The position numbers and the translations under genes are program-made. The notes under the pieces are model-generated. The model was given only the letters and a program-made list of their open reading frames with translations. It was not told where the DNA came from and ran no database searches. From Methanosarcinaceae archaeon (GTDB lineage Archaea; Halobacteriota; Methanosarcinia; Methanosarcinales; Methanosarcinaceae), in contig JAIPUR010000020.1 in NCBI GenBank assembly GCA_020055655.1, positions 1 to 46,711 on the forward strand: a stretch of DNA of 46,711 bases, written 5' to 3'. Positions 4,972-43,444 of this stretch are shown piece by piece. Position 1 is the first letter of the stretch. Every line of letters starts with the position of its first letter.

Positions 4972-5252
4972 TGCCAGATAGTCTCACTGACGGTGCACAG
5001 CGGTTAATAAGAATGGAACAAAAACTCGACGACTTCATAATAGAAGTCAGAAGTTTTATGGTCACACAGCTTGACTCATGTCAGCGCCATACGATGAGAA
5101 ATGAAGACGAACATGAAAAAATATGGCTTGATATTGAACAGCTCAAGTCATTTAAATGGCAGATATACGGTGCAATTGCTATAATGGTATTCGTAATGCC
5201 AGTTATATCGACTGTAGTTGCAGCAGTTGTCATTAATTATCTGGGGATATAA
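4971..5252 (+). CDS. Small membrane protein, holin-like
   Basis: The 93-residue product has an N-terminal charged helical part (residues 1-63, likely coiled coil) and one strongly hydrophobic C-terminal segment (residues 65-90). This layout resembles XhlA-type phage hemolysin/holin partners and small virion membrane proteins. It lies immediately before terminase with a TAATG overlap. A holin role is a guess from topology. It does not look like a small terminase subunit, because it lacks a DNA-binding motif and has a membrane helix. Confidence 0.4.
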   Translation: MPDSLTDGAQRLIRMEQKLDDFIIEVRSFMVTQLDSCQRHTMRNEDEHEKIWLDIEQLKSFKWQIYGAIAIMVFVMPVISTVVAAVVINYLGI

Positions 5253-6787
5253 TGGAAGAATTATTCGAATGTGCGACCCAAGACATGGGTTTAACCAAAG
5301 AACAACTGGCGGAACGTTGGACTAAACCGTTCAACATAGTCACAGATATATTCCAAGTCAGGTCAGCAAACGGTGAGCTAGTGCCGTATACACCATATGA
5401 GTATTCCGTTGACTTTCTGAACAATGGTTTCTATGACATAGACGTCGATAGATGTGCGCTTAAATCCCGTCAGATTGGCTTCTCAACAATTGCTGAAATT
5501 GAAGCAATAATAACAGCAATGACATTCGATAACCAAGAAGTATCTTTTATTTCACACCAGTTCACGGCTTCCAAGAAACTAGTAGAAGCCTGTGGTACAA
5601 TTATAAGAGAAGCTAAGTATCCACTACCGTTCAAAAAAGGAAACGTTCAGAAGCAGCGTATTAAGTGCGATACAGGCTCTACAATCGTACCTTACAGTAG
5701 TAACCCTAGTTCTATTAGAGGTGACTCTAGTATACGAGTGTATCTCGATGAATTTGCTTTCGTTAAAAACCAAGAGGAAACAATGGACGCAGTCGAACCA
5801 AAGCTGTCCAGAGGTGGACAGATTACAATGATGTCAACGCCTCTGAGAGCAGATGACCTGTTCATGCGGACATATAACGACATGAGAAACGGCGATATGC
5901 CAGGTAATGCCATGTTCTGTCCACTATTCGTGGAAGAAGAAGTTGATATAAGCCAGCCACTTACATCTCAAACATTGAATCCAATATGCCCTGATATAGA
6001 CCTAAGCAGAGTAGAATCTGTTAGGAGTAAGTCTATCAATAGGTTCCTTCAGGAATACATGTGTCAGCCGATAGATGAGATAAATGCATACTATCCATAT
6101 GATCTCATACTTGGGTGTACTGAAAATGAACCAGTATACAACAGTAAACATGATAATTCATATATTGTAATGGGATTAGACCATGCGCTTGTACACGACG
6201 AAACCAGCTTCGTCATTAATCAAATAATAGACGGTGTGAATAATATAATATATGTAGAAACAACACAAGCTGAATACGACGAACAATTGAAGAGAGTTGA
6301 ACAATTGTTTAGACAATTCAATGTTCAAAAGATTAGACCAGATGCAACAGGTGAAATGGGTATTCAAGTCGAACGTGACTTACGTAAGAAGTTTGGATAC
6401 TGCGTAGAGGGTGTTAAATATACAAACACTGTTAAAAACGAAATGGCACTTAGACTTAAATATCTTATGCAGAATACAAATAATAACATTAGACCATGTA
6501 TACAGCTACCCGACCATCCTGAGCTTATTGCTCAATTGCATGGTATTCAAATAGAGGTAACTAAAGCAGGTAACACTCAATTCAGTGGGAAACACGGCGG
6601 TGGACTCGATGATATTGTTAATGCACTGTGGCTATCATTGCCACCGGAACATATAGATCATATGAAGTCTCTACCTATAGTTAAATCAGGTACAGCCCCT
6701 AGTGTAAAGAGGCAGAAAACACCCACAAACACATACCATGCTACTACAAGCAAGGGTAAAATAAGATATAGGAGCAAGGGTAGATAA
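5252..6787 (+). CDS. terL: Terminase large subunit (packaging ATPase/nuclease)
   Basis: The protein is 511 residues, normal for TerL. A variant Walker A motif KSRQIGFST is at residues 71-79 and Walker B VYLDEFAF at 163-170. A coupling-type STP (MMSTP) lies near residue 195. The C-terminal RNase H-like nuclease has candidate acidic residues in MGLDHALVHDE, RPDATGE and GGGLDDIVNALW. TerL cuts concatemeric DNA and pumps it into the prohead through the portal, whose gene begins at its stop codon. No small-subunit gene was identified beside it. Confidence 0.93.
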   Translation: MEELFECATQDMGLTKEQLAERWTKPFNIVTDIFQVRSANGELVPYTPYEYSVDFLNNGFYDIDVDRCALKSRQIGFSTIAEIEAIITAMTFDNQEVSFISHQFTASKKLVEACGTIIREAKYPLPFKKGNVQKQRIKCDTGSTIVPYSSNPSSIRGDSSIRVYLDEFAFVKNQEETMDAVEPKLSRGGQITMMSTPLRADDLFMRTYNDMRNGDMPGNAMFCPLFVEEEVDISQPLTSQTLNPICPDIDLSRVESVRSKSINRFLQEYMCQPIDEINAYYPYDLILGCTENEPVYNSKHDNSYIVMGLDHALVHDETSFVINQIIDGVNNIIYVETTQAEYDEQLKRVEQLFRQFNVQKIRPDATGEMGIQVERDLRKKFGYCVEGVKYTNTVKNEMALRLKYLMQNTNNNIRPCIQLPDHPELIAQLHGIQIEVTKAGNTQFSGKHGGGLDDIVNALWLSLPPEHIDHMKSLPIVKSGTAPSVKRQKTPTNTYHATTSKGKIRYRSKGR

Positions 6788-8091
6788 TGAAACTAAAACA
6801 ATATATACTACAGTTGGCAGCAGATAAAATTGAAGCTGTCGATACATATGTACGTAAGGCAAATGTAAAAAATAAGGAAGGCATTGAGAAAGAAAGACCC
6901 GATAACAATCGTTCTCTTTATTGGGCGATATATAGAACGGATGCTATAGTAGGTGCATGTATAGATTTCACTATATCATTTGTCATCGGCGCTGGTATGA
7001 ATGTCACAGTTGTTGACCGCGATGGTGAAGAGGTAAATATACCAGAGTTCAACAGTATTATCCGTAAGTCTAAACCACGGTCTGTAATGAACCAGTTTTT
7101 GAAAGACGGTCATGTCAGTGGAGATGGGTTTTTGTATAAGCTTACGAGCGACGATGGTGATATGATAACAAGATTCGAAGTTATACCATCTAATCAAATG
7201 AGAGTCCATCGTGATGAAAAAGGATACGTGGATAAATACGTACAGGAACTAGGTGAATCAGAGGCTAAATATCCGACATTCGAACCAACTGAAGTAGTAC
7301 ACTATCGTAACAGAGGAATAGCAGGTGAAGCATATGGTAGAAGTGATGTTGAGCCCATTACAGAGGTATCCGAGATTCTTCGTGATATGATAATAGACCT
7401 CAGTAACTTCATCAGTACAAAGGCATATGCGCCTGTATTGTGGAAGTTCGGTTCAGCTGACAGACCATGGAACCCGAAAGATATTGGGGATTTCATGAGA
7501 GACCGCACGGACGTCGAACCAGGTGACCAAATCGGTGTACAGGGCGATATAGAAGTTGAAGCAATCGGAGTAGGCGATAAGGCACTTGATATAGAGCCGT
7601 ATCTTACGTTCTTCGCTTCAATGATTGTTTCTGGTCTACGTGTACCGGCTACATTAACAAGCGTAATCGGTGGAATAGGGCAGTTCACAGCAGATGCACA
7701 GTCCAATGCATATGCAAGACGTATAAACGACATACGTTCAGAACTCGGAGAGCTGCTTGAGGTAGAACTGTTCGATGACATCATACGACAGAATGGCTAT
7801 GGTAGCGACCTCAGAAGCAAGGTTACATGGAAGAAACACGACGATGAATCACTTAGACTCGCTGTAAACAATCTCATACAGTTGGTTCAGAATAGTATAA
7901 TAAGCCCCCAGGAAGCTCGCATGGACTTGTCGTATCCAATGGATGTAACAGGTGAACTCAATAAAGCTATCGATAGGGCAGAAGCAGCTGAGCCTGCTAT
8001 CCCATCTGACGCCGACTCTAATACAATGAAAGATACTGGCGACGACGATGGTAGAGCAGATGAAAAACGAAAGGAATTCACTGAGCAATAA
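6787..8091 (+). CDS. Portal protein
   Basis: The 434-residue protein overlaps the terminase stop (TAATG). It has features of siphovirus portal proteins: an N-terminal RSLYWAIYRTDAIVGACIDF segment, then IPSNQMRVHRDEKGYVDKYVQEL and VVHYRNRGIAGEAYGRSDVEP, and a helical C-terminal region with RVPATLTSVIGGIGQFTADAQ. These match the family pattern of a wing, stem and crown. The last 45 residues are acidic and probably disordered. It would form the dodecameric gate for DNA and the docking site for the connector proteins. Confidence 0.85.
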   Translation: MKLKQYILQLAADKIEAVDTYVRKANVKNKEGIEKERPDNNRSLYWAIYRTDAIVGACIDFTISFVIGAGMNVTVVDRDGEEVNIPEFNSIIRKSKPRSVMNQFLKDGHVSGDGFLYKLTSDDGDMITRFEVIPSNQMRVHRDEKGYVDKYVQELGESEAKYPTFEPTEVVHYRNRGIAGEAYGRSDVEPITEVSEILRDMIIDLSNFISTKAYAPVLWKFGSADRPWNPKDIGDFMRDRTDVEPGDQIGVQGDIEVEAIGVGDKALDIEPYLTFFASMIVSGLRVPATLTSVIGGIGQFTADAQSNAYARRINDIRSELGELLEVELFDDIIRQNGYGSDLRSKVTWKKHDDESLRLAVNNLIQLVQNSIISPQEARMDLSYPMDVTGELNKAIDRAEAAEPAIPSDADSNTMKDTGDDDGRADEKRKEFTEQ

Positions 8092-9042: not shown

Positions 9043-9057
9043 TCGGAGTGATAACAA

Positions 9058-9690
9058 ATGGCAGATAATACAAGCACATTCACCGGAACATATGGCGGGG
9101 GACTTCCTCTTACTGTGATCCTTAACGAAGGTGCAATAACAGTAGGTACATCTTACGACGGAATTGGAACAAAGGCAACCTCTTATACATTTGCTAGTGA
9201 ACTAGCAGAGGGCGACTACGTAGCCATCAGTAACGACAGTGGTAACACATTCGCAGCAACAGGTGGAATTCCACTAGTTGAGACAGCTGTGAACGGCGAA
9301 GGCCTTGTAATTGGGAAGATAGTCAGTACACCAGTATTCGAACAGAAGCCAGCTAACTCAGCAGCAGCTGATACTCTCGCAGAAAGACTTGCTGGGAAAT
9401 ATTACAGAGTTGCGGTAGTTGAATTCATGGCTGGAATAACCAGTGTACAGAAGGCTACTGTCATGTGTGACGGTACTAATGCAACCGTACCTGGTGTAGG
9501 AAGTACACTTAAATTTAATATAACCAGTGGATATTCCACTAGCATAGAAAACGGACTACAGTTCGATTCTGCTGCAAGTGGTGGAACAGGGGTAATACCA
9601 TTCCATTACGTGCCATCGGGAACCAATGGAGATACATACAGCTGTCTCGTAGGTATCACCGGACTGCTTACATCCGTAACTGGAGCATAA
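9058..9690 (+). CDS. Capsid decoration/accessory protein
   Basis: This 210-residue, Gly/Thr/Ala-rich, beta-type protein lies directly before the major capsid gene. Segments such as LAEGDYVAISNDSG and NGEGLVIGKIVSTP resemble the small beta-barrel capsid-stabilising proteins often encoded there (DUF2190-like). It has no Trp and one Cys. It is probably an outer-surface stabiliser. A minor role in head assembly cannot be excluded. Confidence 0.5.
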   Translation: MADNTSTFTGTYGGGLPLTVILNEGAITVGTSYDGIGTKATSYTFASELAEGDYVAISNDSGNTFAATGGIPLVETAVNGEGLVIGKIVSTPVFEQKPANSAAADTLAERLAGKYYRVAVVEFMAGITSVQKATVMCDGTNATVPGVGSTLKFNITSGYSTSIENGLQFDSAASGGTGVIPFHYVPSGTNGDTYSCLVGITGLLTSVTGA

Positions 9691-9706: not shown

Positions 9707-10675
9707 ATGGTAAGCGGAACAAACGACCGTTATCTTAAGACAGATGTAGCTCTCCCTATTATCAGGGAGATAGCTGAACCGTACCTTTGGGCATACGATC
9801 TTGTAACACCTGTACCAGAGGACAGACTTGCGTTCATGTATCTATACGACGATACTGGAATGTCAAGCGACAGTAAAAAAGAGAAACCACCTGAGCACAA
9901 AATTGGTGCAAAGTTCCCAGAGGTCGACGTCGGTCGTATCTCAAGCGGAGCAGATGTCATCAGTGAACGTGGTTTCCAAATGCGCATACCGGACAGTGTT
10001 CTCAATGACCCCGTTCTCGGTGGAACTGAACTTAGTAGACTGTTTAAGACAGCTGGATTCTGGTTTGCTGAAATCGACAACTCCAGTATACTATCGAATC
10101 TCAAGTCAGGTGCAAACACCACGACCTCATATTTCAGCCCAGGTAACACATGGGACAGCTCAAGTGCAACCCCTGTAACTGATATCGTGGACTTCAAACA
10201 TGATATGACAACCGAAGGAAAGCCATTCAGAATGAATCAGGTTTTCATCGACAATGAAAATTTCTATGAAATGTCCGAGCATCTCATAAATGCTGACATT
10301 GACGGTGCAAAACAGCAGAGGATCATGGGAATGCCGACTATGGGCGAAGACTACATTGATGTTCCCGTATTCGGTAGAGTCAGTGGAGTTGAATCTGGTA
10401 TGACAGAAGGTTCTATCATGGGTGTCGATACTCGTAACCCTGTTGGAGAAATGCACTACTACAACAATCCTAAGTACAGTGTACCATCTTTCTCATACAC
10501 GACCAACAACCCTGCAACTGGAGCAGTAGAAGAAATCACAATTCCAAACATGGGATACAACTTCTATCAGTATCACGAGGACGACACACACGATACTGTC
10601 ATGCAGTTCTGGGTAACCAACGATACAATCGTAAAGGACTCCTACGGCGTTCTATATGCATCCTCAGGCATCTGA
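9707..10675 (+). CDS. Major capsid protein, HK97 fold type
   Basis: The 322-residue protein is in the canonical position after scaffold and decoration genes. It starts with the conserved-looking run YLKTDVALPIIREIAEPYLWAYDL and has the mixed alpha/beta composition of HK97-type shells. Codon choice shifts to C-ending codons (TTC, GAC, AAC, CTC) compared with neighbours, as expected for a very highly expressed gene. A strong hairpin terminator follows. No N-terminal scaffold (delta) domain is visible, consistent with the separate scaffold gene upstream. Confidence 0.75.
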   Translation: MVSGTNDRYLKTDVALPIIREIAEPYLWAYDLVTPVPEDRLAFMYLYDDTGMSSDSKKEKPPEHKIGAKFPEVDVGRISSGADVISERGFQMRIPDSVLNDPVLGGTELSRLFKTAGFWFAEIDNSSILSNLKSGANTTTSYFSPGNTWDSSSATPVTDIVDFKHDMTTEGKPFRMNQVFIDNENFYEMSEHLINADIDGAKQQRIMGMPTMGEDYIDVPVFGRVSGVESGMTEGSIMGVDTRNPVGEMHYYNNPKYSVPSFSYTTNNPATGAVEEITIPNMGYNFYQYHEDDTHDTVMQFWVTNDTIVKDSYGVLYASSGI

Positions 10676-19387: not shown

Positions 19388-19647
19388 TGCGACACATGAA
19401 ATATCTGAGTTACGGTAGCAATATATGTACATTGACGCATAATATAGTACACCAATGTACACATATGTACATTAAAGTTAACCCATGTTTCCAGTGGAAA
19501 CTAAAATAAACGATAGCAGTCGTTTGAAAACCAAAAGGTATATATAGTATAATATCGTAGTGAGTAGTATACGAACGAAGTGTCGGTACTCCCAGTTTTG
19601 CACATACAACAAATGTACGACTTTGGTTCAGAAAAGAAAGAGTTGTC

Positions 19648-19700
19648 TTAAGTAAACAAAAGTAAACAATTGTATACTTTAGACTTCTTTGTTATTTCTA
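19648..19700. repeat. 53-bp dispersed repeat, copy A (AGTAAAC family)
   Basis: This segment matches 38828-38880 at 52 of 53 positions. It includes two AGTAAAC units, the imperfect dyad AAGTAAAC-AATT-GTATACTT, and a tail AGACTTCTTTGTTATTTCTA. It lies in the 354-base gap between the zinc ribbon and MT-A70 genes. Apart from this repeat and a TATA-like string around 19540-19553, that gap holds nothing recognisable. It is probably a binding site for a viral or host regulator. Confidence 0.8.
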
Positions 19701-19708
19701 ATCAATTG

Positions 19709-20218
19709 TTATACTTGGTTACCCCATGAATCCCAATTGTCTCTTCGTCGTCTAGCGAACAGTTCGATATACGGTGGATAACTGACTTTCTCTATATATT
19801 CATACATCTCATCTGGTTTACGTGAGTGCTCTAGTCTCGGTGATATTATAGAAGTAGTGCCCTGTTGTCGCTTGCCTTCGATTGTTTTATATGGTAGCTT
19901 GCCCTTGACTGCAAATATACAATGTTCAGTTTGCCCACGGAAATACTGACCTAGCCCGAATCTATCTTTAGTCCATGTTATCATTGTTATATATCGGAAC
20001 CCCCACCCATCTACCACTTTCAATGCATCTGGTAGATGATTGTTTGTCGTCCACATATACAAATGGCAATTTTCATCTGATATATCGTCTATCCACTTGG
20101 ACATCTCAAGTATTTCCTTTGTCTTCATAAGTGGATAATGTTTGTCAGCACCTCTCTTTATTTTACCGCCGCCTGACTCATTCCAAGGCGGGTCGGCGTA
20201 TATTGTTTTATATTTCAT
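19709..20218 (-). CDS. MT-A70 family adenine-N6 DNA methyltransferase
   Basis: The 169-residue protein opens MKYKTIYADPPWNESGGG with the DPPW catalytic motif at residues 9-12. Further MT-A70 features follow: HLYMWTTNNHLPDAL, GFRYITMITWTKDRFGLGQYFRGQTEH, and SPRLEHSRKPDEMYEYIE. It transfers a methyl group from S-adenosylmethionine to adenine N6. In viruses it usually protects DNA from host restriction. No target-recognition domain is added, and the length is typical for phage MT-A70 enzymes. Confidence 0.9.
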   Translation of the reverse strand: MKYKTIYADPPWNESGGGKIKRGADKHYPLMKTKEILEMSKWIDDISDENCHLYMWTTNNHLPDALKVVDGWGFRYITMITWTKDRFGLGQYFRGQTEHCIFAVKGKLPYKTIEGKRQQGTTSIISPRLEHSRKPDEMYEYIEKVSYPPYIELFARRRRDNWDSWGNQV

Positions 20219-23813: not shown

Positions 23814-25529
23814 TCATTCACATTTACTATATCCACACACTTTACAAATACTACAACCAGCTTCAAACACGATTTCACTCTTGCATTCTGGACAGCTGTC
23901 GACAGATGTATCCTCTATTTCAATAATTGGTTTATAAAAATCTTTTATAGCATTCATTATTGCATATGCACAATTAGAACCACTGCTTAATTTATCTCCG
24001 TTAGCACGTGCTCTAACGAAACTGGAGCATGCACCGACTCCATCAATTGCTTTTTCTATGTTATCAAGTGACCCGCCAAGTCTTATCATACCAGACATTG
24101 CTATAACAAGCGAATCAAGTGAGCGTTCGCATCCACCCTTACCAGAGCGTTTCATGTAAAGCTCCTGTAGTTTACCAGTTGATTTACTATGTCCAATGAA
24201 TAATGCTATTTTACCACATCCTGTATATATCTTACGCTTGATGTAGATTGTATCACTGTCAAGTTTAGACCATTGTCCACGTTTGTATTCTGTATTTGAC
24301 TTACTGGATTCACCCGTTGTCAGTATACCCTCTCGGTTACTTCCTTCTCTGTGAACGGTGACACCTTTAAGACCCATTTTCCACGCTTGTATATAGACAT
24401 CCCTGACGTCTTCAACTGTTGAATCGTTTGCTAGATTAACTGTCGATGATATCGATGAATCTATAAACTCCTGCCATATTGATTGTGTTAGGATTCTATG
24501 AATTGGTTTTATTTCAGAAGCAACTATGAATTCACTTGGATATTCACATGAGCCGTGACTGTCTACATACTGCTGCACAATTCCGGGTCTCATAACATAA
24601 GACTTGTCTTTATCATGTAATGACTCAGTTCGTCTATTGTATTCAAGTGCAAACAATGGTTCAATTCCACCACTGACATCTAGCATAGTGCTAATGCTAC
24701 CAGTTGGTGCTATCGATAGTATACTAGCGTTTCGTAGTCCGTTATCTGAAATCAGTTCAATCGTCGACTTCGATAGATTATGATTTACAAACTCCGATGA
24801 CAATGTATCTTCTTTTACATAGTTGGGAAATGCACCAAATGTTCCAGCTAATTTAGCTGATTCCTTAAATGCATTATCACACATGAACGACGCCAGTTTA
24901 TTTGTGAATACAATGGCACTGTCACTGCCGTATCTAAGATTCATTTTTATAAGCATGTCAGCATAACCCATCACACCTAATCCAATTTGTCTCCAGTCCC
25001 TAGCTGCATTTCTTTGTTCTTCTAATGGGTGACGTGGTATACCCTCGTCCAGAACAGCGTTAAGAGCTCTCATAGCAACCTCTATTGTTCTACCGAACAT
25101 ATCAAAGTCAAACGTACCATTTTCACATACCATCTCACTTAAGTTAATACTGCCGAGTAAACATGCACCGTATGCTACCAATGGTACTTCACCACATGGA
25201 TTGAGACCAACTAGTTCATAATTACTATAATGCGACATTGCATTCCAGTTTTCAATTCTATCCCAGAATGCGATCCCTGGTTCTGACCAATTATAGTTAG
25301 CATCAACTAACTCGTCGAACAACTGACATGCATCAACTGTTTTATTGTATGTAGTATCATTCCTCGTAAACAATTGTTCATATGGTTCTTTGTTTTCGAC
25401 TGCTAACATAAACCCATCGTTCATACGTATGGATAGATTGGCTTTTAATAGAGCATCGTTAGATGTCTTAGCTGCAATGAAATCACCTATCTCAAAATGT
25501 TCACATGACATCGATAGCATTAATGCACC
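23814..25529 (-). CDS. nrdJ: Class II ribonucleotide reductase, exon 2
   Basis: This exon encodes residues 146-716 of the spliced enzyme. It starts at GALMLSM, which continues the sequence LIGQDGRR of exon 1. It holds the barrel with the radical-cysteine motif LNPCGEVPL, the GSINLSE strand, the APTGSISTMLDVSGGIEP substrate-binding loop, and a C-terminal Cys cluster (CPEC, CSICKVCGYSKC) that is typical of adenosylcobalamin-dependent reductases. An ATG-started open frame to 25748 exists but its first 73 codons lie in the intron. The enzyme makes deoxynucleotides under anaerobic or aerobic conditions. Confidence 0.9.
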   Translation of the reverse strand, partial: GALMLSMSCEHFEIGDFIAAKTSNDALLKANLSIRMNDGFMLAVENKEPYEQLFTRNDTTYNKTVDACQLFDELVDANYNWSEPGIAFWDRIENWNAMSHYSNYELVGLNPCGEVPLVAYGACLLGSINLSEMVCENGTFDFDMFGRTIEVAMRALNAVLDEGIPRHPLEEQRNAARDWRQIGLGVMGYADMLIKMNLRYGSDSAIVFTNKLASFMCDNAFKESAKLAGTFGAFPNYVKEDTLSSEFVNHNLSKSTIELISDNGLRNASILSIAPTGSISTMLDVSGGIEPLFALEYNRRTESLHDKDKSYVMRPGIVQQYVDSHGSCEYPSEFIVASEIKPIHRILTQSIWQEFIDSSISSTVNLANDSTVEDVRDVYIQAWKMGLKGVTVHREGSNREGILTTGESSKSNTEYKRGQWSKLDSDTIYIKRKIYTGCGKIALFIGHSKSTGKLQELYMKRSGKGGCERSLDSLVIAMSGMIRLGGSLDNIEKAIDGVGACSSFVRARANGDKLSSGSNCAYAIMNAIKDFYKPIIEIEDTSVDSCPECKSEIVFEAGCSICKVCGYSKCE

Positions 25530-26441
25530 CAATGCTATCGAATGATTTACACGTGTTTCCACGTGGTTCGGACTATATCTTACGTATAATATACGCTCGG
25601 ACGCTTCTCTGGTTATTAAGACTGTCGCCAGTCTCCAGTAGTCTCTACACCTTCCTACTCCGTAGGCTTGGCTCGGTATTACCATATCATTAGACACAGG
25701 CTTCACCGAATTCATCCAATTCAAGACGCAGTGCAACTGCTTTATCATGTTTACGATTTAATACAACAAAGTCATCTGAATAAATATATTCGATGAATTT
25801 CAGTACGTCACATCTGCTACTGAATTCGAGGATGTAACAATCCTCGCCTTTCTTTGGTCGTATTGCGTTTGATATACCAATTTTAATCAATATCTTCTGT
25901 ACACCCAAAAGGATATTATACTGTGAGGTGAATGATATTTTGTGCCATACTCTGTCTCTATCCTTCCGTCTACCCCATGTTATACAACCGTCTGCGTCAA
26001 ATATACCCAATATCATATAACGCTCTAGTTCAACTGGTATTATAGGAACATTTCTGTCTGGTTTTCGACATCCCCCAACGTGTTTGTTGATATGTTTAAC
26101 AAACTCGCGATTTGATATAGATGTCCTCGCTCGTGGGAATAGTCTCTGTGATTTAACCATTTTATCTGATGTTTGATAATTAGACCCAATGTAATCAGAT
26201 ATATATTCATGTATACATACATCTCGGTTTGAAGTACATAACGATACTGTGTCATTTGTTATGTATCCATCTGCCAATATAAATCCAGTTATATATGCCG
26301 TCTCCTTACTTCTAATTGATTTAAATTCAGAAATATTTTTGTATGTAGGATTGGCATCGTTTGGATGTTTGATTAGTATATCTTTATTCATGATAATTAC
26401 TCCTACTCTATATATTTTCGGTGTAAAGCAAATGTTAGTTA
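25530..26441 (-). ncRNA. Group I self-splicing intron in nrdJ
   Basis: Exon 1 ends in CGU followed at once by UAA, and the reductase reading frame resumes after a G at 25530, so a 912-base insert with U before and G at its end interrupts the conserved GRR-GAL sequence. The 160 bases after the endonuclease gene carry the group I core: GGAAGGUGUAGAGACUA (25642-25658) and AAGAUAUAGUCC (25570-25581), whose GACUA/UAGUC halves form P7. The endonuclease gene fills the 5' part. I could not assign P1 and the internal guide sequence. Confidence 0.88.
25690..26391 (-). CDS. LAGLIDADG homing endonuclease (intron-encoded)
   Basis: The 233-residue protein has two LAGLIDADG-type motifs, AYITGFILADGYI near residues 32-44 and YMILGIFDADGCI near 130-142, so it is a single-chain endonuclease. 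It lies wholly inside the group I intron, starts 50 bases after the 5' splice site and stops before the ribozyme core. Its AGGAGTAATTATC site precedes ATG. It would cut intronless nrdJ alleles to spread the intron. It may also help RNA folding as a maturase. Confidence 0.9.
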   Translation of the reverse strand: MNKDILIKHPNDANPTYKNISEFKSIRSKETAYITGFILADGYITNDTVSLCTSNRDVCIHEYISDYIGSNYQTSDKMVKSQRLFPRARTSISNREFVKHINKHVGGCRKPDRNVPIIPVELERYMILGIFDADGCITWGRRKDRDRVWHKISFTSQYNILLGVQKILIKIGISNAIRPKKGEDCYILEFSSRCDVLKFIEYIYSDDFVVLNRKHDKAVALRLELDEFGEACV

Positions 26442-26876
26442 ACGTCTCCCATCTTGACCTATCAGTGCAGTAGTTGTATTGAATAGCTCAGCGAATGACA
26501 CTGCTCCACTTGTTGCCCTAGCTGCATTGTTTATAGGCGTTCCAACTGGTGATAATTTGCTTAAATCAGTACCACATCCACCGCCGTATGAATATGTTCT
26601 TGCTATGTCAGATGATGTCTTATATATCGACTCAAGTGTATCCTCAAGTGGAAATACATAGCAATTGGATAGACTAAGTTTCCTGTCATTGATTCCCCTA
26701 GCAGCCAGTATTCTACCAGCGAACATGAATTTCTTTTCGTATATTAAATTAGCTACATCCGTGTCACCATTTGACACTCTTGTCACCCAGTCATCGAACG
26801 ACTCGTCACCGTTTCTATATTTTTTATTCCATATATCGACACCTATATCTGTGTCGAAGTAATCATTTGCTTCCAT
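26442..26876 (-). CDS. nrdJ: Class II ribonucleotide reductase, exon 1
   Basis: The 145-codon exon starts at an ATG preceded by AGGAGAATAAACAA. It encodes the N-terminal helical region and the first barrel strand, with redox cysteine 72 in LSLSNCYVFP and the conserved GGGCGTDLSKLSPVGTPI motif. It ends GQDGRR, and without splicing the ribosome meets TAA at once. An unspliced transcript therefore gives only this 145-residue fragment, which cannot be active. The full enzyme after splicing is 716 residues, within the usual range for class II. Confidence 0.9.
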
Positions 26877-31789: not shown

Positions 31790-31916
31790 GTTTCCTCGTT
31801 TCATAATCATCGAACAGATGTTCAATTGCATCGTTATATTTTAGATAACCATGTAATTCCATTATATCTCTAAGTCTGTCATCGTTATGTTTTTTTAACC
31901 ATATAGATTTACCCAT
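31776..31916 (-). CDS. Small charged protein, 46 residues
   Basis: The frame starts MGKSIWLKKHNDDRLRDIMELHGY and is helical and strongly charged. The ATG follows AGTGATTTAA, a few bases before the primase stop (8-base overlap). Overlaps on both sides favour a real gene. No family is recognised. Confidence 0.5.
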   Translation of the reverse strand: MGKSIWLKKHNDDRLRDIMELHGYLKYNDAIEHLFDDYETRKHEST

Positions 31917-32823
31917 TTAAATCACATCCATTGCAATAATCTCCTATTTTATCATATGCATCTGTCTTAAGTTTGTTACATGTGAAACGATTGTAGTTCC
32001 ATAGTGAATCTACCATATAAAGAGTTTTCATATAATCGAAATCACTTTGATACTTGAAGCATTCTGTTACCTGTTCACGTGTATATCCTGCCCCGTGCTT
32101 AAGCTCAGGTACAAGTGCACATCTAAGCAAATGTCCGCTTGTACCAGTCATCTTAATTTCACCCGTTGCACATGCTCTCATACACCTACGAACACTTGTT
32201 GGCAGTACACCAGTGGATGTACCAATTTTAGCCTGACGTTCATCTGATAGTTTATTTATATACTCAGATTCATCGTAGTTGTTAATGTCGATATACCTAA
32301 GTTCAGAACAAAAGAGTTGCATTCTAGAACGGCTCCCGTTCTTTCTGTTTATTCCAAATGGAAGCTTAACTAGATTTCCGAATTGTTTTAACTCAGTTAA
32401 CTCTGGTTGCTTAGGATAAACCTCGACATTCAACCCATGCGAAAGCTCCCGACCAAAGTAATAAGCTTTAACTCCCTTTGTTCTGACCAGAAATATCCAG
32501 AAGTGATACGAATGTTCACTACCACTCGATTCAACCACAAATGGTATACCGTTCTCACTGAGCCTACAGAAGACCTCGAACGATATAACATTCGCCTTTA
32601 CTATTTCATCGTCACCATGGGCGTCTATATCAATGCAGAGCCATGTTACAGTGTCGTCTTTCTCCATTTGATACGAACCAATTGTTATATCACCGTTCAA
32701 ATGTTTTTCAATTGTTTCATCGCTCAGTTCTTTGAATTGTCGGATGTATCCATATTCTGACTGTGTTGCATATATATCACGTCTGTTTACATATAATTGC
32801 ATGTCATAAGGATCCACAATCAT
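31909..32823 (-). CDS. Archaeo-eukaryotic primase (TOTE-type)
   Basis: With start at 32823 the protein is 304 residues. It matches the TOTE-system primase domain: YVNRRDIYATQSEYGYI near 11-27, HLNGDITIGSY, WLCIDIDAH with metal-binding Asp65 and Asp67, SGSEHSYHFWIF near 100-111, and VEVYPKQPEL with QFGNLVKLPFG. A short Cys-containing C-terminus ends it. It would lay down primers for replication. A start at 32928 or 32895 is possible but would overlap a zinc-binding gene. Confidence 0.82.
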   Translation of the reverse strand: MIVDPYDMQLYVNRRDIYATQSEYGYIRQFKELSDETIEKHLNGDITIGSYQMEKDDTVTWLCIDIDAHGDDEIVKANVISFEVFCRLSENGIPFVVESSGSEHSYHFWIFLVRTKGVKAYYFGRELSHGLNVEVYPKQPELTELKQFGNLVKLPFGINRKNGSRSRMQLFCSELRYIDINNYDESEYINKLSDERQAKIGTSTGVLPTSVRRCMRACATGEIKMTGTSGHLLRCALVPELKHGAGYTREQVTECFKYQSDFDYMKTLYMVDSLWNYNRFTCNKLKTDAYDKIGDYCNGCDLNG

Positions 32824-32848
32824 ATCACCAAGTTCAAACGATATCAGA

Positions 32849-32992
32849 CTACCACCAATCGTCCTCTTTTTTTTGTTTGTATAACCATTCTTCATACTCT
32901 GCATAGTAGTCAGCTTGACACAGTTCATCACAGAACTGGCTGCAATCGTCTACTAATGTATGACCACAGTATCTACATTTATTTATCATCAT
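32849..32992 (-). CDS. Small treble-clef-type zinc protein, 47 residues
   Basis: The product MMINKCRYCGHTLVDDCSQFCDELCQADYY has CRYC and CDELC pairs, as in small zinc knuckles (DUF2116-like), followed by an acidic helix and WW at the end. The start near 32992 follows GTGATATA. It is the first gene after the terminator that follows Hjc. It stops just before the primase start. It ends in TAG. Confidence 0.55.
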   Translation of the reverse strand: MMINKCRYCGHTLVDDCSQFCDELCQADYYAEYEEWLYKQKKEDDWW

Positions 32993-33992: not shown

Positions 33993-35471
33993 TTAGGCTC
34001 CCGTTAAAATATATTTATCATCTAATTGTTTTATGTGTCCAGATGTTTCCATCTGTTTCAATACATCAACCACATCAAAGTATGTAGCATTCATCAGTCT
34101 TCCCTGGTAGTCTGGTTCATTCAATATACCATTTGCTATTCCTGTTCTCGTTGTATTATTGTTTGGCTCGGATAACCACATACGAACACATGACATTATA
34201 CCAGCTTCCTTCTCACTTATATTTGAGCTAGATACAGCCGGAACAGCATCAAGTTCTTTAACAGCAAACTCACCTTCTATATATTCACCATATGCTTTTA
34301 TATCATCGAATGTATTTCCTGTTAATATATCAACTATCTCACTTTTATCCAGTTCCCATATTATATCCCAATCAACCTTGAGTTCAATTACTTGTTTATG
34401 TGGGTTACTACTGTAACTATAGCCATTTGCACTTGTTTCCCGTGTAACGTAGTTTTCATTGTACAGTTTATCCAATCTACGATTCAATTCAACTCTAGTT
34501 AGCTCAGCCAACCCACATATTTGCAAGTGCTTTGTAAGTGATTCCTCTGATTGCTGTGGATTAGTACACAATCGTCTGTATATTGTCATGTCTATGTAAT
34601 CAATAGACATTGTAGTTGCTCTAAATAAATCAAACATCACCAATATATTTGCAACGTCTTGTGCGTTTGCAACAATCACACCATCTGATAAATCACGGTT
34701 CATCCAGTTGAGCCTAGCAGATGCCTTTATCATACTCGAGATGATATTAGCATGTCGTTTACTGACAGCTTTACTGTGGTTGACCATGTCAATCAATGCA
34801 TATGTGTAGGGAATTACCACGTCCATATCAACTTCACCAAGTGATTCAATTGAACTCATCAGCTCATTCTGTAGTTCAGTACAAGGTTCAAACTTATACT
34901 GATGTCCAAGATATTCAACTGACGTAGCACCGAATTTCAATGCAGCCACGCACCTATTTATTTTATAATTCTCAACAATTGGTGTCACGAATACACGAGA
35001 TTCTAATTCCGGGTCGATGTCTACCTGTGCATACGTAACAGTGTACACACGCTTAGGCTGTGGTATTCTCTCAGTTGTTCCCTGAACAGTGACCTCATAT
35101 ACAAATTCAGCATCATCACCACTAAGTGACTTCATATATTCCAATATCGGTTTACCGAGTTTCTGATATTCACCAAGTTTGATTATACGAATTTCATCGT
35201 TATCCCTGAGTGCATCGCTGTATATAAGAGCTTTATCTGATGCACTGGTGATGTTATGTTGGTGTGCTGGATTAAACAGTCGATGTGCAATGTTCTGTAG
35301 ATGTGTTTTGCCACCGCTCAATTCACCTACGATAAACGACGGGACATATTCATTCGGTCTTTTAGAATATGCAGTGGCTAAGCATAGTATAACTGATAGG
35401 AACTGTGCCTCGTTTCCTACAATATGGTGTCTACCATATTCTATTATTTTTCTGCATATGTCTTCTGTCAT
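33993..35471 (-). CDS. MCM-like AAA+ replicative helicase
   Basis: The 492-residue protein has a Walker A motif GELSGGKTH at residues 49-57, an acidic Walker B-like segment IRIIKLGEYQKL, a sensor-type strand TVTYAQVDID and ELESRVFVTP in the position of the arginine finger. This order resembles MCM-type AAA+ ATPases. A C-terminal winged-helix-like part (SEESLTKHLQICGLAELTRVELNRRLDKLYNENYV) follows. Placed with primase and Hjc, it is the best candidate for the replicative helicase. It lacks a typical MCM N-terminal domain. Confidence 0.65.
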   Translation of the reverse strand: MTEDICRKIIEYGRHHIVGNEAQFLSVILCLATAYSKRPNEYVPSFIVGELSGGKTHLQNIAHRLFNPAHQHNITSASDKALIYSDALRDNDEIRIIKLGEYQKLGKPILEYMKSLSGDDAEFVYEVTVQGTTERIPQPKRVYTVTYAQVDIDPELESRVFVTPIVENYKINRCVAALKFGATSVEYLGHQYKFEPCTELQNELMSSIESLGEVDMDVVIPYTYALIDMVNHSKAVSKRHANIISSMIKASARLNWMNRDLSDGVIVANAQDVANILVMFDLFRATTMSIDYIDMTIYRRLCTNPQQSEESLTKHLQICGLAELTRVELNRRLDKLYNENYVTRETSANGYSYSSNPHKQVIELKVDWDIIWELDKSEIVDILTGNTFDDIKAYGEYIEGEFAVKELDAVPAVSSSNISEKEAGIMSCVRMWLSEPNNNTTRTGIANGILNEPDYQGRLMNATYFDVVDVLKQMETSGHIKQLDDKYILTGA

Positions 35472-37399: not shown

Positions 37400-38272
37400 T
37401 TATTCTCCTATTAACTCACCGAAATGAGCGGCAACTATTGCCATGTCTTGTATGTTTACATATCCATCCTGATTAACATCGTATCTAGGTAGAGCGTCGT
37501 CGCTATACTCGCCGCTATAGTTGTTTGCAACTATAACAAGATCTCTAATATCGACAACTCCGTCTTTATTTACATCCCATCTAGGATGCACTGTAAGCAC
37601 TGTAATTGTGAACTCGTCGTGTACCCATTGGTAATCATCTGAAACAGTCACATTGACGCTATATGTGCCTTCTGAAGCACGCCAGTATAATCTATCTGTG
37701 GCATCGTCAAATATCATTCCACTTGGTTTTTCTTCAACCCATATGCCAATGTCATCGCCATCAGTATCAGTAGCATTAATAGGCACCTCAAGAAATGTAC
37801 CATCATCGATGATAATATCATCGGTGGGCTCGAGTTCAGGTGGAGTGTTAACTAGTATAGTCACGTAATCTGTACTAGATTCAACTTCATTTAAGTCGCT
37901 GTCTATTAGCATGACATTGTCAAGTTTTACAACGTAATAACCGGTTTCGTTACCTGCTATCATGTTAATCGTGGAAATTCTACCACGTTTATCAAATGAA
38001 CCACCGCCTAATATAGTACCGAATCCGGTATTATCCTTGCTATTGAAATATGCATCGCCATTCAATAGTTCACCAGCTGTCATATTGACCATTGTAAAAC
38101 TATCATTGTAAACAATGTCATACTGGAATCCAGTATAGTTTATCCTTGTCGAACTAACGTCGACTGGGAATTCATCACCTGGACTAACCTCGTCATCTGC
38201 ATTAAGCTCTAATCCAGACGATATGTTAATGGTCAATAATATAACCATTAAATATATAATATATTTTTTCAC
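37400..38272 (-). CDS. Secreted cohesin- and dockerin-like protein
   Basis: A GTG start after AAGGAGAATAAAAT gives a 290-residue protein. Residues 1-20 form a signal peptide (MKKYIIYLMVILLTINISSG). Residues 20-150 match a cohesin fold (ELNADDEVSPGDEFPVDV, TGFQYDIVYND, GYYVVKLDNVMLID). A cadherin-like Ig segment follows, with PPELEPTDDIIIDDGTFLEVPINATDTDGDD near 150-185. Two calcium-binding dockerin repeats (DVNKDGVVDIRDLVIVANNY and DVNQDGYVNIQDMAIVAAHF) end it. Such proteins are common on methanogen surfaces. It lies among replication genes in a viral early operon, which is unusual. Confidence 0.85.
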   Translation of the reverse strand: MKKYIIYLMVILLTINISSGLELNADDEVSPGDEFPVDVSSTRINYTGFQYDIVYNDSFTMVNMTAGELLNGDAYFNSKDNTGFGTILGGGSFDKRGRISTINMIAGNETGYYVVKLDNVMLIDSDLNEVESSTDYVTILVNTPPELEPTDDIIIDDGTFLEVPINATDTDGDDIGIWVEEKPSGMIFDDATDRLYWRASEGTYSVNVTVSDDYQWVHDEFTITVLTVHPRWDVNKDGVVDIRDLVIVANNYSGEYSDDALPRYDVNQDGYVNIQDMAIVAAHFGELIGE

Positions 38273-38758: not shown

Positions 38759-38880
38759 TAGAAATAACAAAGATTAATAAAGTAAACAATTGTATACTTA
38801 AGTAAACAAAAGTAAACAATTGTATACTTAAGTAAACAAAAGTAAACAATTGTATACTTAAGACTTCTTTGTTATTTCTA
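38759..38880. repeat. AGTAAAC repeat cluster, copy B, with flanking inverted repeat
   Basis: Two full 30-bp units (38801-38830 and 38831-38860; each AGTAAACAAAAGTAAACAAT then TGTATACTTA) and one partial unit (38781-38800) lie in tandem. They are flanked by a perfect 15-bp inverted repeat, TAGAAATAACAAAGA at 38759-38773 and its reverse complement at 38866-38880. The last 53 bases are shared with 19648-19700. Further AGTATAC half-sites occur at about 38714 and 38895. This is the only clear content of the 224-base gap. Confidence 0.85.
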
Positions 38881-38903
38881 AACATTTGTAGACTAAAGTA
38901 TAC

Positions 38904-39784: not shown

Positions 39785-40293
39785 CAACTATTGGACACCC
39801 ATTGCACAGGCTCTATTTTTATGATTGCATCGTCTCCAAAAAGACATTTAGAATATTGTCTTAGTTGGTCACGTGACAATCCATTGATACTGTCATATGT
39901 TTTTAATACAATCTCCCATGTGGGATCCATCAACGAATAACAACTATTATATCTGTCATATACAACCGTATATGTGAATGGATGGGTACATTCTTCGTTC
40001 TCATGAATTGCAATTCTGTCACCGTTTTTTATACCCGGTTCGATTTTATGTGGTGTTTTTATATAAAACGGTGAATTGGGAAATATGGGCATTTCATTGT
40101 TTATCTCCTCTACTGTAGTTACCGTCGGAAGTCTTTCCATGATAATGGCAATATTTTTTTCATGCCTGACCAAACATGAATCAAAATTACTTGTTATCAT
40201 GTATGTGAAAAGCTCACCGTGTATGTTCTCAAGTACCGTACCCTGTTTAACCTTGTTTTCAATCATAACATAATCGTCTAAATTTATAAACAT
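39784..40293 (-). CDS. Unknown protein following the E1-like gene
   Basis: The chosen ATG at 40293 lies 8 bases after GAGGTGT; another ATG at 40299 is too close to that site. The 169-residue product is mixed alpha/beta with a GELFTYMITSNFDSCLVRHEK region and EPGIKNGDRIAIHENEE. It overlaps the E1-like stop by 10 bases, so it is translated with the ubiquitin-like cluster. No family is recognised. It could be a cluster-specific partner. Confidence 0.5.
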   Translation of the reverse strand: MFINLDDYVMIENKVKQGTVLENIHGELFTYMITSNFDSCLVRHEKNIAIIMERLPTVTTVEEINNEMPIFPNSPFYIKTPHKIEPGIKNGDRIAIHENEECTHPFTYTVVYDRYNSCYSLMDPTWEIVLKTYDSINGLSRDQLRQYSKCLFGDDAIIKIEPVQWVSNS

Positions 40294-40982
40294 TTCCATA
40301 CACCTCTGTATAACATTACAGTATCATTAACTTTGATAGTCCCGTTCTTACGGTCGACTGCTAGCGATCTCTGGTATTCATTATCACGTACTATATCACT
40401 GACTGCTCTTATCATATTAGCAGTTATGTCGAGTGCTATATATATAACAGCTCTTGCTGTACATGGCAATTCTAAAGCATCATTTGGGTTAAAAAGAGTT
40501 GATTCGTAGAACTCTCTGTCTTCTTTTGATTCCAAGTCGATTACATATACTTGAAATAGCTCACCACCTAACCGACCGTCTATCAACCATTTAACACCTC
40601 TATCAACGGCTCGAGTGTAAATACTCCGCCTTGATTCTATGCTATCGGTACCTACCATTACAATATCTGCATTGAGCCGAGTTCTAGGTGTGATGAACAC
40701 GGGCATTTTCTTAATTTGATTGCCTGTCTTCCGTTTGACTATTGCATTTGCTGCATTTACTTTGAACATTCCTATATGCTCAAAGTCAAAATTTTGATTA
40801 GGTAGATTATGCGGTTCTACCTTATCATTGTCATATACTGTCAAATCACTGAATCCCATTTGAGCCAAGTGTTCAACAAGGAAACTTCCGATTCCACCAC
40901 ATCCCGCTATAGATATACGTGGCTGCCATCCGTCATTTGGATTGAAAAAATCCAATTGTCTCATGTAGTCTATTTTAGTCAT
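40284..40982 (-). CDS. E1-like (ThiF/HesA-type) activating enzyme
   Basis: The 232-residue protein has the Rossmann ATP-binding motif ISIAGCGGIGSFLVEHLA with GCGGIGS at 27-33, then DLTVYDNDKVEPHNLPNQNF at 47-64 (the D-D-V-x-x-x-N-L-x-R/Q-Q type motif), and ADIVMVGTDSIESRRSI near 105-121. Cys174 in ELPCTARAVIY is the best candidate for the thioester cysteine. No CxxC zinc site and no ubiquitin-fold domain are present, as in short E1 enzymes of PRTRC and phage type. It would adenylate the C-terminal Gly of the modifier. It overlaps the JAMM gene by 8 bases. Confidence 0.88.
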   Translation of the reverse strand: MTKIDYMRQLDFFNPNDGWQPRISIAGCGGIGSFLVEHLAQMGFSDLTVYDNDKVEPHNLPNQNFDFEHIGMFKVNAANAIVKRKTGNQIKKMPVFITPRTRLNADIVMVGTDSIESRRSIYTRAVDRGVKWLIDGRLGGELFQVYVIDLESKEDREFYESTLFNPNDALELPCTARAVIYIALDITANMIRAVSDIVRDNEYQRSLAVDRKNGTIKVNDTVMLYRGVWKCL

Positions 40983-41835
40983 CGTCTACTCCATTTATCA
41001 TTTCAAGTTCATATTCCATCAAGTCTGCAAATGTATAACACTTGTTATACCCAAGGTCACACCATTCTTCAACTATTTCTTCATCTGACATGTCAATCAA
41101 CTGTTGAATTCCATAGTCTGATACCTCGTTCTCCATCAGTATACATGTTATAGCTCCAATATGTTCTTTATATGCATTCGATATTGGGATAGCGGTCTTA
41201 TCGCCATTCTTTGAAGTTGTCTTCGCATACTTATTTGGGTAGCTTGGCATTTTAACAACATTAGTCTTCAAATGCTCAACTATTTCTTTTAGTTCAGGTG
41301 CATCTGGGTCATCTGGTATAATAATACATTCAATTGAATCTATTGATTCAACATGTGTACCAAGTGAACTATTCACAATTACATCTATACGACCGTTCAT
41401 AGAATTACTTTTGTTAACACATATGTTAAAGGCATGTTTAACCCCAGTTGAACCCATGTAATTGTCAATCGTTTCGTCGTCCTGTCCACTGAACCCGGTT
41501 GACATATTGACATGTGAATGTATCCAACCGTTTATTGGTGTACCGTCCATATATGATTTCATTTGTACATCTGACAGAGCTTGACCGCCCCACTGACAAA
41601 CAACGCCACTGACTTCCTGTGGAATTTGATATATGTTTTGCACCAGTACATCTCCAGATACCTCGAGATCATGTTGACATGATATCATCGCTCCAACTTC
41701 GACATCGATATTATGCACCATTGTATATATCTTCTCCCATATACTAGTGGGAATTAAAAATCTGAAATCTCTACCCGTTGGCACTGGTTCATAATTGTAT
41801 TTATATGATTTTACTTGTTTATACGCCTTTCCCAT
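40975..41835 (-). CDS. JAMM/MPN+ peptidase (deubiquitinase-like)
   Basis: The 286-residue protein has a full JAMM site: Glu46 in DVEVGAM, then GWIHSHVNMSTGFSGQDDE with His106, His108, Ser116 and Asp119 in the H-x-H-x7-S-x2-D pattern. This predicts an active zinc isopeptidase. A C-terminal extension of about 110 residues has no known domain and ends in acid residues. With E1 and E2 genes on either side it matches PRTRC protein A or BilC. Because the modifier ends in Gly, deconjugation is more likely than precursor processing. Confidence 0.9.
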   Translation of the reverse strand: MGKAYKQVKSYKYNYEPVPTGRDFRFLIPTSIWEKIYTMVHNIDVEVGAMISCQHDLEVSGDVLVQNIYQIPQEVSGVVCQWGGQALSDVQMKSYMDGTPINGWIHSHVNMSTGFSGQDDETIDNYMGSTGVKHAFNICVNKSNSMNGRIDVIVNSSLGTHVESIDSIECIIIPDDPDAPELKEIVEHLKTNVVKMPSYPNKYAKTTSKNGDKTAIPISNAYKEHIGAITCILMENEVSDYGIQQLIDMSDEEIVEEWCDLGYNKCYTFADLMEYELEMINGVDDD

Positions 41836-41840
41836 TTAAA

Positions 41841-43019
41841 TCACCTAACTCTAGTGCATTTTTTAAGTTCATCTACCAACATGCGGAATTCTGTATCATT
41901 CATGTGAACTGATTCTAGGTATTCAATGTATTCTTCTTCTGATTCAAAGTTTTCCTCTGGTTCGAACATTTCATGATTGTTTGGTACATCTGGTATAATA
42001 TTATCTCTGAGTTTCATGAGTATCTCCCATATGTTCCTCGCATCGCATTCATTGTTCAGTCTATCAATTGCATTGCCGTCGTGTTGTAATAGACTAATAC
42101 CGGTATACATATCATACCTACGCACGACACATTTTGTTAATTCTCGGATCAAAGAAACATACTCTTCAAACGAAACATCAACTCCATATCGGTAAATATC
42201 TACTAGGAGTACATTGGATCCCCAATCTATATGAGAGCATATCCTATCATGTGCACGGGCACTATATTGGAGTACGTTGCAATATCCATTCAGTACATGT
42301 TTAGTTGCATTTATGGGCTTGAGTTCATATATATACTCACAATTGTTGCATATGTGAGTATTACTGTTACTGCATTCGAAACACTCACATCTATCACATA
42401 CATCTGACATATATGGACAATCGTCACATGGATTGACAGAAAATGGGTTCCACGTCGGAGAAGACATATTGCAAACCTTGAGCATATCAACAATAAGCTC
42501 TACCGCCATCGGTACATTCAATGCCTTTAACAATGTTTGCGGTAGTCTATAATCCCCCCAGCATATCTCACCGGTTGTGTATATATTTGGATGAGGACAT
42601 TCCCAATCATGGTCAGGATTGCACTCACCTTCGACCCATTCAACAGGAAAAATACGCACATCAATACCTAATGTGGTTGGATATAAATACATGTACAGTT
42701 CTCCCAGTTCACAGCTTAAATCAGGGAAATCATTTGCAATACATGTAATGTTTTCGATCGTCAAAACAAGACAATCATGCCGGCTGAATATTATTTCATC
42801 TGAATCATCTTGGAAATCCACCTGTATGAAGAACTCAATCCATTTCACATATCTAGCACCTGTAACATGCTCTATTTCCATAAGCCGCTCGAGTAATTCG
42901 CTATTAGACGGGAATATAATATCATTGAAATATTTACCCGTCTCTTTATAACATTTGAATAAAAACGGGTCATGTTCTTCTTGGTTTTCCACTACACCGC
43001 ATACGTCCATATTTCGCAT
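41841..43019 (-). CDS. E2-like conjugating enzyme with Cys-rich insert (PRTRC B-like)
   Basis: The 392-residue protein has an N-terminal RWD/UBC-type core. Its active-site segment ECPHPNIYTTGEICWG carries HPN at 143-145 and Cys153 as the likely thioester cysteine, the same order as E2 enzymes (HPN, then Cys 8 residues later). After the core, eight Cys at about 198-227 (CDDCPYMSDVC, CECFEC, CNNC) suggest zinc binding. The C-terminal 100 residues are helical and acidic. GAGGTGTATAT precedes ATG. It would accept the modifier from the E1-like enzyme. Confidence 0.8.
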   Translation of the reverse strand: MRNMDVCGVVENQEEHDPFLFKCYKETGKYFNDIIFPSNSELLERLMEIEHVTGARYVKWIEFFIQVDFQDDSDEIIFSRHDCLVLTIENITCIANDFPDLSCELGELYMYLYPTTLGIDVRIFPVEWVEGECNPDHDWECPHPNIYTTGEICWGDYRLPQTLLKALNVPMAVELIVDMLKVCNMSSPTWNPFSVNPCDDCPYMSDVCDRCECFECSNSNTHICNNCEYIYELKPINATKHVLNGYCNVLQYSARAHDRICSHIDWGSNVLLVDIYRYGVDVSFEEYVSLIRELTKCVVRRYDMYTGISLLQHDGNAIDRLNNECDARNIWEILMKLRDNIIPDVPNNHEMFEPEENFESEEEYIEYLESVHMNDTEFRMLVDELKKCTRVR

Positions 43020-43040
43020 ATATACACCTCTTTTGATATT

Positions 43041-43076
43041 TAAAAAAATAAAAATAGTGAACGGGTTTAACCGTTC
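43041..43076 (-). terminator. Hairpin-T terminator after the Ubl gene
   Basis: On the minus strand GAACGG and CCGTTC pair over 6 bp around TTAAAC, starting at the last base of the modifier stop codon, and ACTATTTTTATTTTTTT follows. It would end most modifier transcripts before the E2 gene, giving much more modifier than enzymes. Confidence 0.65.
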
Positions 43077-43333: not shown

Positions 43334-43411
43334 ATTTTTTGCTCCTTTATTTAATTTGCGACCATTGAAGCGTGCCCAAATTGAGCATAATAGCAGAAAC
43401 AATAGGTCTTT

Positions 43412-43444
43412 ACAAATAAATAAAAGATGTTGTAGATAACATCT
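43412..43444 (-). terminator. Hairpin-T terminator before the Ubl gene
   Basis: AGATGTT and AACATCT pair over 7 bp around ATCTAC, overlapping the stop of the 43583 gene, followed on the minus strand by TTTTATTTATTTG. It would isolate the modifier gene from upstream transcripts. The 110-base gap to the modifier start would then have to hold its promoter; an AAATTAAATAAA string just before the ribosome site is the only candidate. Confidence 0.55.

Follow-up and report, generated by a model that had tools for sequence, protein, structure and literature searches.

Can a group I intron of the kind seen in bacteriophage reductase genes also reside in a protein gene of an archaeal virus and, if so, from where did it come? 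The question is raised by a ribonucleotide reductase gene, nrdJ, that is interrupted by 912 nt on a contig assigned to a methanogenic archaeon. By the window we mean the whole stretch of DNA analysed; its 46,711 bases make up one entire contig (C12), and the assembly to which it belongs totals 2.48 Mb. Judged from its sequence, we consider it very likely that the window represents a tailed methanogen virus whose class II ribonucleotide reductase gene houses a mobile group I intron.

Boundaries, ribozyme and endonuclease of the insertion

The initial annotation had placed the break in nrdJ between the GRR and GAL codons, with exon 1 ending in U ahead of a UAA and the insert ending in G, and the joined frame confirms this arrangement (Table 1). 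Exon 1 ends with GGG AGA CGU and exon 2 starts with GGU GCA UUA AUG; the 5' end of the intron is the UAA that directly follows the GRR codons, and its last base is G. Removal of the 912 nt leaves one open reductase frame of 716 aa, with PF02867 recognized on both halves and a TSCPD domain at the C-terminus, which agrees with the proposal that nrdJ is the host gene. The exon 2 domain scores were taken on the overlapping ORF 23814-25748. A search of IMG/VR with the joined NrdJ protein alone returned no relative.

Table 1. Features of the window that bear on the intron, its host gene and the host of the contig
Feature	Position	Strand	Basis and remarks
Terminase large subunit	5252..6787	+	Host-domain marker; best 20 of 2081 phage matches are haloarchaeal tailed viruses
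Portal protein	6787..8091	+	Host-domain marker; 55/56 matched phage records are haloarchaeal viruses
nrdJ exon 2	23814..25529	-	571 codons and stop, start GALM; PF02867 253 bits, TSCPD 25 bits
Group I intron	25530..26441	-	912 nt; RF00028 74.9 bits; boundaries from exon frame, P1/P10 and terminal G
Guide sequence and catalytic core P3-P9 through terminal G	25530..25729	-	200 nt; Rfam and family alignments
AAGAUAUAGUCC, contains 3' strand of P7 (UAGUC)	25570..25581	-	Sequence, Rfam and family alignments
GACUA, 5' strand of P7	25639..25643	-	Sequence, family alignment
Double-LAGLIDADG homing endonuclease, 233 aa	25690..26391	-	PF14528; phrog_4645 endonuclease; 3' end enters ribozyme core
GCGUCUU internal guide sequence, intron strand of P1	25723..25729	-	7/7 pairs with exon 1
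UGCACU, intron strand of P10	25730..25735	-	6/6 pairs with exon 2
AGGAG, ribosome-binding-like site	26400..26404	-	8 nt before endonuclease ATG; sequence reading
Stretch identical to intron 5' part of L112	26400..26423	-	24 nt, before endonuclease start
nrdJ exon 1	26442..26876	-	145 codons, end ...IGQDGRR; PF02867 52.8 bits; phrog_84; joined frame
492-aa protein, replication-gene block	33993..35471	-	Host-domain marker; 4/4 matched phage records are haloarchaeal viruses

The covariance-model search that had been proposed as a check came out in favor of the intron: RF00028 matches at 25549-25783 (-) over model positions 1-253 of 253 with 74.9 bits and an E-value of 2.5e-17 (gathering score 50), and this is the sole group I match of the whole assembly. 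The two motifs named beforehand as P7, GACUA and AAGAUAUAGUCC, were also assigned correctly, each holding one P7 strand in the Rfam and family alignments. All seven bases of the internal guide pair with the 3' end of exon 1, with a U.G at the splice site, and all six of the adjoining UGCACU pair with the 5' end of exon 2. This total of 13/13 was reached by 0/2000 mononucleotide shuffles of the intron, the best of which gave 12, in 77 cases. The endonuclease gene separates the guide from the 5' splice site, which is why the guide is found as far as 712 nt downstream of it. Thus a P3-P8 core with the P7 guanosine site, scoring above the Rfam cut-off, is combined with the P1 U.G, P10 and the terminal G, and by sequence the insert reads as a complete-core mobile group I intron with exact boundaries and perfect P1 and P10. 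The arrangement of P7.1/P7.2, which we take to be that of subgroup IA, probably places it there.

The last 228 nt of the intron (25530-25757, (-)) contain no stop codon in the reading frame of exon 2; at the 19 other loci checked the corresponding opening is 0-99 nt long. This opening is probably due to chance; a start codon within the 3' part of the intron could yield an N-terminally truncated NrdJ.

The endonuclease ORF is intact, scores 53.6 bits against PF14528 (cut-off 22.5), and its last codons, ALRLELDEFGEACV, overlap both the guide and the beginning of the ribozyme core. A sequence search of solved structures with this protein gave chance-like matches only, and a fold search was used instead. 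The structural model (pLDDT 89.7) matched PI-PfuI (Z 18.3, rmsd 2.5, 181 residues), I-Tsp061I (Z 16.0) and I-DmoI (Z 15.8). Residue D41 is invariant in 7/7 aligned sequences, and D134 is present in 4/4 aligned, with Glu at the same position in the relative from viral contig L191. Two motifs with acidic residues in one chain, together with the predicted fold near PI-PfuI and I-DmoI, support the earlier identification of the protein as a LAGLIDADG endonuclease.

Type of insert and host of the contig

The assembly, whose completeness is 99.91% and contamination 0.9%, contains an archaeal 16S rRNA and methyl-coenzyme M reductase. The nearest solved relatives of the latter are 1e6y and 8gf5, presumably Methanosarcina enzymes. 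The contig itself is unlinked to chromosomal DNA, and its affiliation was read from viral genes. The terminase matched 2081 phage records, mostly of bacterial phages, and the best 20 of the 2081 all belong to haloarchaeal tailed viruses. The portal protein gave 56 matches among 50,697 phage records, 55/56 being haloarchaeal viruses, and the 492-aa protein of the replication-gene block matched haloarchaeal viruses in 4/4 cases and bacteriophages in none. By the kinship of terminase and portal the contig groups with archaeal tailed viruses (Caudoviricetes). The capsid-region protein at 9707-10675 matched no phage record, and the terminase occurs in 2/237 genomes of the class, its own included, the other copy being 31% identical. 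With these nearest relatives, and with an archaeal methanogen as the source of the assembly, the assignment to an archaeal virus made in the initial annotation is well supported but not proven, and we hold with high confidence that the contig is a tailed virus of an archaeon.

Two other readings of the locus concern what the insert is and whose genome carries it. Many of the archaeal introns that encode LAGLIDADG proteins belong to the bulge-helix-bulge type, and the endonuclease fold resembles archaeal ones such as I-DmoI, so one could think of such an intron, or else of a group II intron or an intein. All of these are contradicted by the complete group I core, which comes with P1, P10 and the terminal G. 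No group II or other intron family was detected at the gathering threshold in a Rfam scan of the window, and an intein was rejected since the exon 1 frame runs into UAA at once after the GRR codons; we regard this reading as practically negligible. More weight, albeit little, goes to the idea that the contig is a bacteriophage mis-binned in an archaeal assembly, with the intron then being an ordinary phage intron. Its composition is unlike that of host stretches (tetranucleotide correlation of 0.09-0.31 with the assembly, against 0.67-0.68 between host stretches), its reductase is nearest, among named phages, to those of Clostridioides phages (48% identity), and its primase matched 3 bacterial phage records and 0 archaeal ones. 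A DNA search of 27 genomes of the genus with bases 1-40000 found no provirus, and no CRISPR spacer against the same bases was found. The portal, terminase and 492-aa protein matches all point the other way, as do the high completeness and low contamination of the assembly. So does a dockerin/Ig-like gene at 37400-38272 (-), which has DNA matches of 67-87% in 14/27 genomes of the host genus, including another contig of its own assembly (the comparison covered the genus only), and which was probably taken by the virus from a host. A mis-binned bacteriophage is therefore improbable in our estimate, and we proceed with a virus of the methanogen.

Some further observations on the contig are recorded here. 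Around the 48 loci that matched in the 27 genus genomes there was no CRISPR-like array; one locus with an 81-nt repeat spacing was considered as such an array and was read instead as a protein repeat. The primase (31909-32931, (-)) is of the AEP-TOTE type (PF22548, 81 bits), a domain named from conflict systems. Within 40284-43450 (-), a ThiF/E1-like gene (PF00899; PADLOC E1-E2 models) adjoins genes for 286-aa, 392-aa (sub-threshold Prok-E2_D, E 0.0096) and 124-aa proteins, and the set is possibly a viral ubiquitin-like conjugation set. Finally, a dispersed repeat pair at 19608-19709 and 38785-38889, of about 100 nt and 84% identity, is accompanied by a partial inverted copy.

One insertion site shared among viral contigs

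A scan of IMG/VR with the endonuclease identified three relatives of 44-52% identity, all located in an nrd gene right after GRR. An alignment scan gave 23 loci, 16 of them matching the endonuclease at 40-52%, and when DNA was scanned for the pattern of the guide region 22 stretches matched, adding the contigs L189, L190, L191, L201, L202 and L206; the pattern matches L188, L192, L203, L204 and L205 were dropped, having no P7 or exon site. In all, 22 viral contigs carry this intron and endonuclease at the same codon junction. A scan of genome contigs returned 30 endonuclease relatives at 21-32% identity only. The comparisons that follow use a non-redundant set of 15 introns, namely the window and 14 of the 22 viral contigs. 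Left out were L120 and L121 (which repeat the intron of L115 exactly), L124 and L191 (near copies of L117 and L190), and L118, L125, L202 and L206, in which the element is partial, cut by the end of the contig or stretch.

Three of the 22 contigs were tested for affiliation, and they look like bacteriophages, two crAss-like and one Geobacillus-phage-like. In L110 a neighboring gene is 98.5% identical to that of the crAss-like phage cr126_1, the L119 reductase is 52-53% identical to those of crAss-like phages, and the L112 terminase is 45.6% identical to that of Geobacillus virus E3. A phrog_2 terminase was present in 6/18 records, the viral contig L012 described below included. The available parts of one study describe introns as dense in crAss-like phages (PMC7886860). 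The introns of L110, L112, L119 and others share with the window the GRR/GA codon junction, the guide GCGUCU(U/A) and the endonuclease clade, whereas the virus lineages that carry them differ. In L191 (2752-4701) and L122 the reductase gene has, by eye, an apparent intein besides the GRR/GA intron.

The pairings are kept throughout the set. P1 forms 7/7 pairs in eight of the 15 introns and 6/7 in seven; P10 forms 6/6 in eleven and 5/6 in four. P10 also covaries at the third base of the first exon 2 codon, which is U-A in the window, G-C in five introns, C-G in five and A-U in two; the exceptions are L113, mismatched, and L122, shifted by one codon and still pairing at 6/6. In a family alignment folded with RNAalifold, P3, P4, P6, P7.1/7.2 and P8 each show several standard pair types, with three P5 pairs and some P7.1/7.2 pairs broken in 1-4 sequences. 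Core identity between the window and the other introns ranges from 64.5 to 75.7%, with L113 at the top.

That the intron moves by homing, as first proposed, is supported by comparison: by the shared site, by a conflict between trees and by a pair of crAss-like phages with and without the intron. In the phylogeny of the endonuclease suggested at the outset, the rows at this site cluster together, apart from four distant rows (95/98), and the window sits in an unresolved fork, beside no particular phage. Elsewhere in the family, L119 groups with L110, L114 and L122 by its reductase (100/99) and with L111, L116 and L189 by its endonuclease (98/97). Forcing the alternative groupings cost 145 and 66 log-likelihood units, and both were rejected (p-AU 1.5e-70 and 0.0083), values that are optimistic because the compared sets were picked after the trees were known. 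Up to the site, the intron-bearing L110 and the intronless cr126_1 agree at 97.2% of 4,777 columns, and beyond it at 98.4% of 311; at the site itself they show a synonymous cluster (AGA GGT GCT CTT in cr126_1, CGT GGG GCA TTA in L110). The crAss-like empty sites read AGA AGA GGT GCT CTT ATG in 4/4 cases. The Arg codon before the intron is CGT in 15/15 introns, compared with 12/100 Arg codons elsewhere in those exons; in this flank count BS-TP1 and GBK1 yielded no site (2/11 loci). Going by sequence comparison, such a cluster matches what homing co-conversion would leave. L110 has two more insertions relative to cr126_1, at 6067-6890 and 8478-9391, within this reductase gene or next to it; each contains an ORF judged HNH-like by eye.

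Neither the flank nor the history of the intron is open to one reading only. The clustered synonymous flank (AGA CGU/GGN GCA UUA AUG, the slash marking the insertion point) may reflect selection for pairing with the guide instead of co-conversion: the CGT part is also needed for P1, which requires GACGU, so CGU would be expected from splicing alone. Against this, the change from CUU in cr126_1 to UUA in L110 falls outside the six paired bases of exon 2, and pairing therefore does not demand it. We give selection for pairing a real chance, though clearly less than an even one. A different doubt is whether the intron is a newcomer at all. The search for an intronless nrdJ in a related virus, also proposed initially, succeeded with the viral contig L012, whose terminase is 62% identical to that of the window and whose NrdJ is uninterrupted (751 aa) and sister to the NrdJ of the window (90/86 and 93/87, local trees). 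Its empty site, AGACGT/GGTGCACTGATG, has the intron-type flank AGACGT/GGTGCA, and is apparently either an ideal target or the scar of intron loss. Because the site already has AGACGU/GGUGCA, the intron may be old and lost in L012, having been long resident in the archaeal virus lineage or a common nrdJ ancestor and passed on vertically. The sister relationship of the two nrdJ genes fits this, as do the fairly long end branch of the window endonuclease (0.6-0.7) and its lack of an N-terminal region found in 3/3 aligned relatives. However, other members of the family have discordant endonuclease and reductase trees, the crAss-like pair with and without the intron indicates recent movement, and the window shares the 24-nt stretch with L112, whose terminase is Geobacillus-phage-like. 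We therefore consider vertical inheritance rather unlikely, and keep to acquisition by homing in what follows.

Known introns and the direction of transfer

Group I introns with homing endonucleases are found in phage reductase genes, such as nrdB and nrdD of T4, and nrdE of the Staphylococcus phage Twort and of the SPbeta type in Bacillus. In a comparison that covered ribozyme, host gene, endonuclease and virus, the window resembles these in having a group I ribozyme and a homing endonuclease in a viral reductase gene, and differs in its class II nrdJ, its LAGLIDADG endonuclease and its archaeal virus.

On the archaeal side, RF00028 was found in 1/27 genomes of the genus, and in the phylum in 5/392 genomes at E 0.001 and in 1/392 above the cut-off. 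Scanned alone, L133 also rose above the cut-off (54.5 bits), and three other phylum matches stayed below it; L133 is from an archaeon of this phylum, and its group I intron (953-1697), which contains an ORF, lies in 16S rRNA. At the gathering threshold RF00028 detected 0/4 sources (L009, L010, L011 and L012), even though the introns of L009-L011 are plain by sequence, and thus the archaeal survey counts are lower bounds. With the endonuclease profile at E 1e-8, 3/392 genomes of the phylum matched, these being the window, L220 and L221; the L220 match lies inside a longer 470-aa frame.

The available parts of the 2018 survey by Nawrocki, Jones and Eddy relate that group I introns had until then been thought absent from Archaea, and place 39/39 of the archaeal group I introns described there in rRNA genes (PMC6125680), in line with the initial remark that such introns are described mostly from rRNA. 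As described there, these introns share with the window the archaeal setting and the frequent presence of a homing endonuclease; they lie in rRNA genes, in contrast to that of the window, which lies in a virus protein gene. In the portions available, a survey of archaeal tailed viruses (PMC8651126) mentions introns once, as tRNA introns. Within the open-licence literature covered, mainly titles and abstracts, we found group I introns reported neither from archaeal viruses nor from protein genes of Archaea. The mechanism is therefore ordinary and the family of a known type, but the setting and the site shared between phages and an archaeal virus look new in that literature.

Of the two sources offered at first, a bacterial phage or another archaeal element, the bacteriophages are better supported: all close relatives of the endonuclease that were found are in viral contigs, those that are long enough have the same insertion site, and the three tested for affiliation look bacterial. 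Transfer from a bacteriophage to the archaeal virus is likelier than the reverse: it is in phage-type contigs that the known diversity is found, and the nrdJ of the window is itself nested among phage nrdJ genes. We find it reasonably probable that one intron lineage occupies the same codon junction in crAss-like and Bacillota-type phages and in a methanogen virus, and that this is the first such intron to be reported in an archaeal virus and in a protein gene on the archaeal side.

We could picture the life of the element as follows. In the infected archaeal cell the RNA would excise itself with a guanosine cofactor and join the exons, from which NrdJ would be made, while the endonuclease would be translated from its own ribosome-binding-like site. 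When another virus with an uninterrupted nrd gene infects the same cell, the enzyme would cut that gene at or close to AGACGU/GGN, and repair would copy the intron with a short flanking tract into it. In this way, homing could have spread one intron lineage among very different reductase genes of bacterial and archaeal viruses.

Its place in a viral protein gene implies that the ribozyme would have to act on an mRNA inside an archaeal cell, with possible interference from translation and transcription. The empty site of L012 and the crAss-like pair with and without the intron provide ready targets for cleavage assays. If our reading is true, the locus is a direct case of an intron that crossed the domain boundary between viruses, and the common site in phages and an archaeal virus would offer a concrete route for gene flow across domains, through co-occurring viruses with similar nrd genes.
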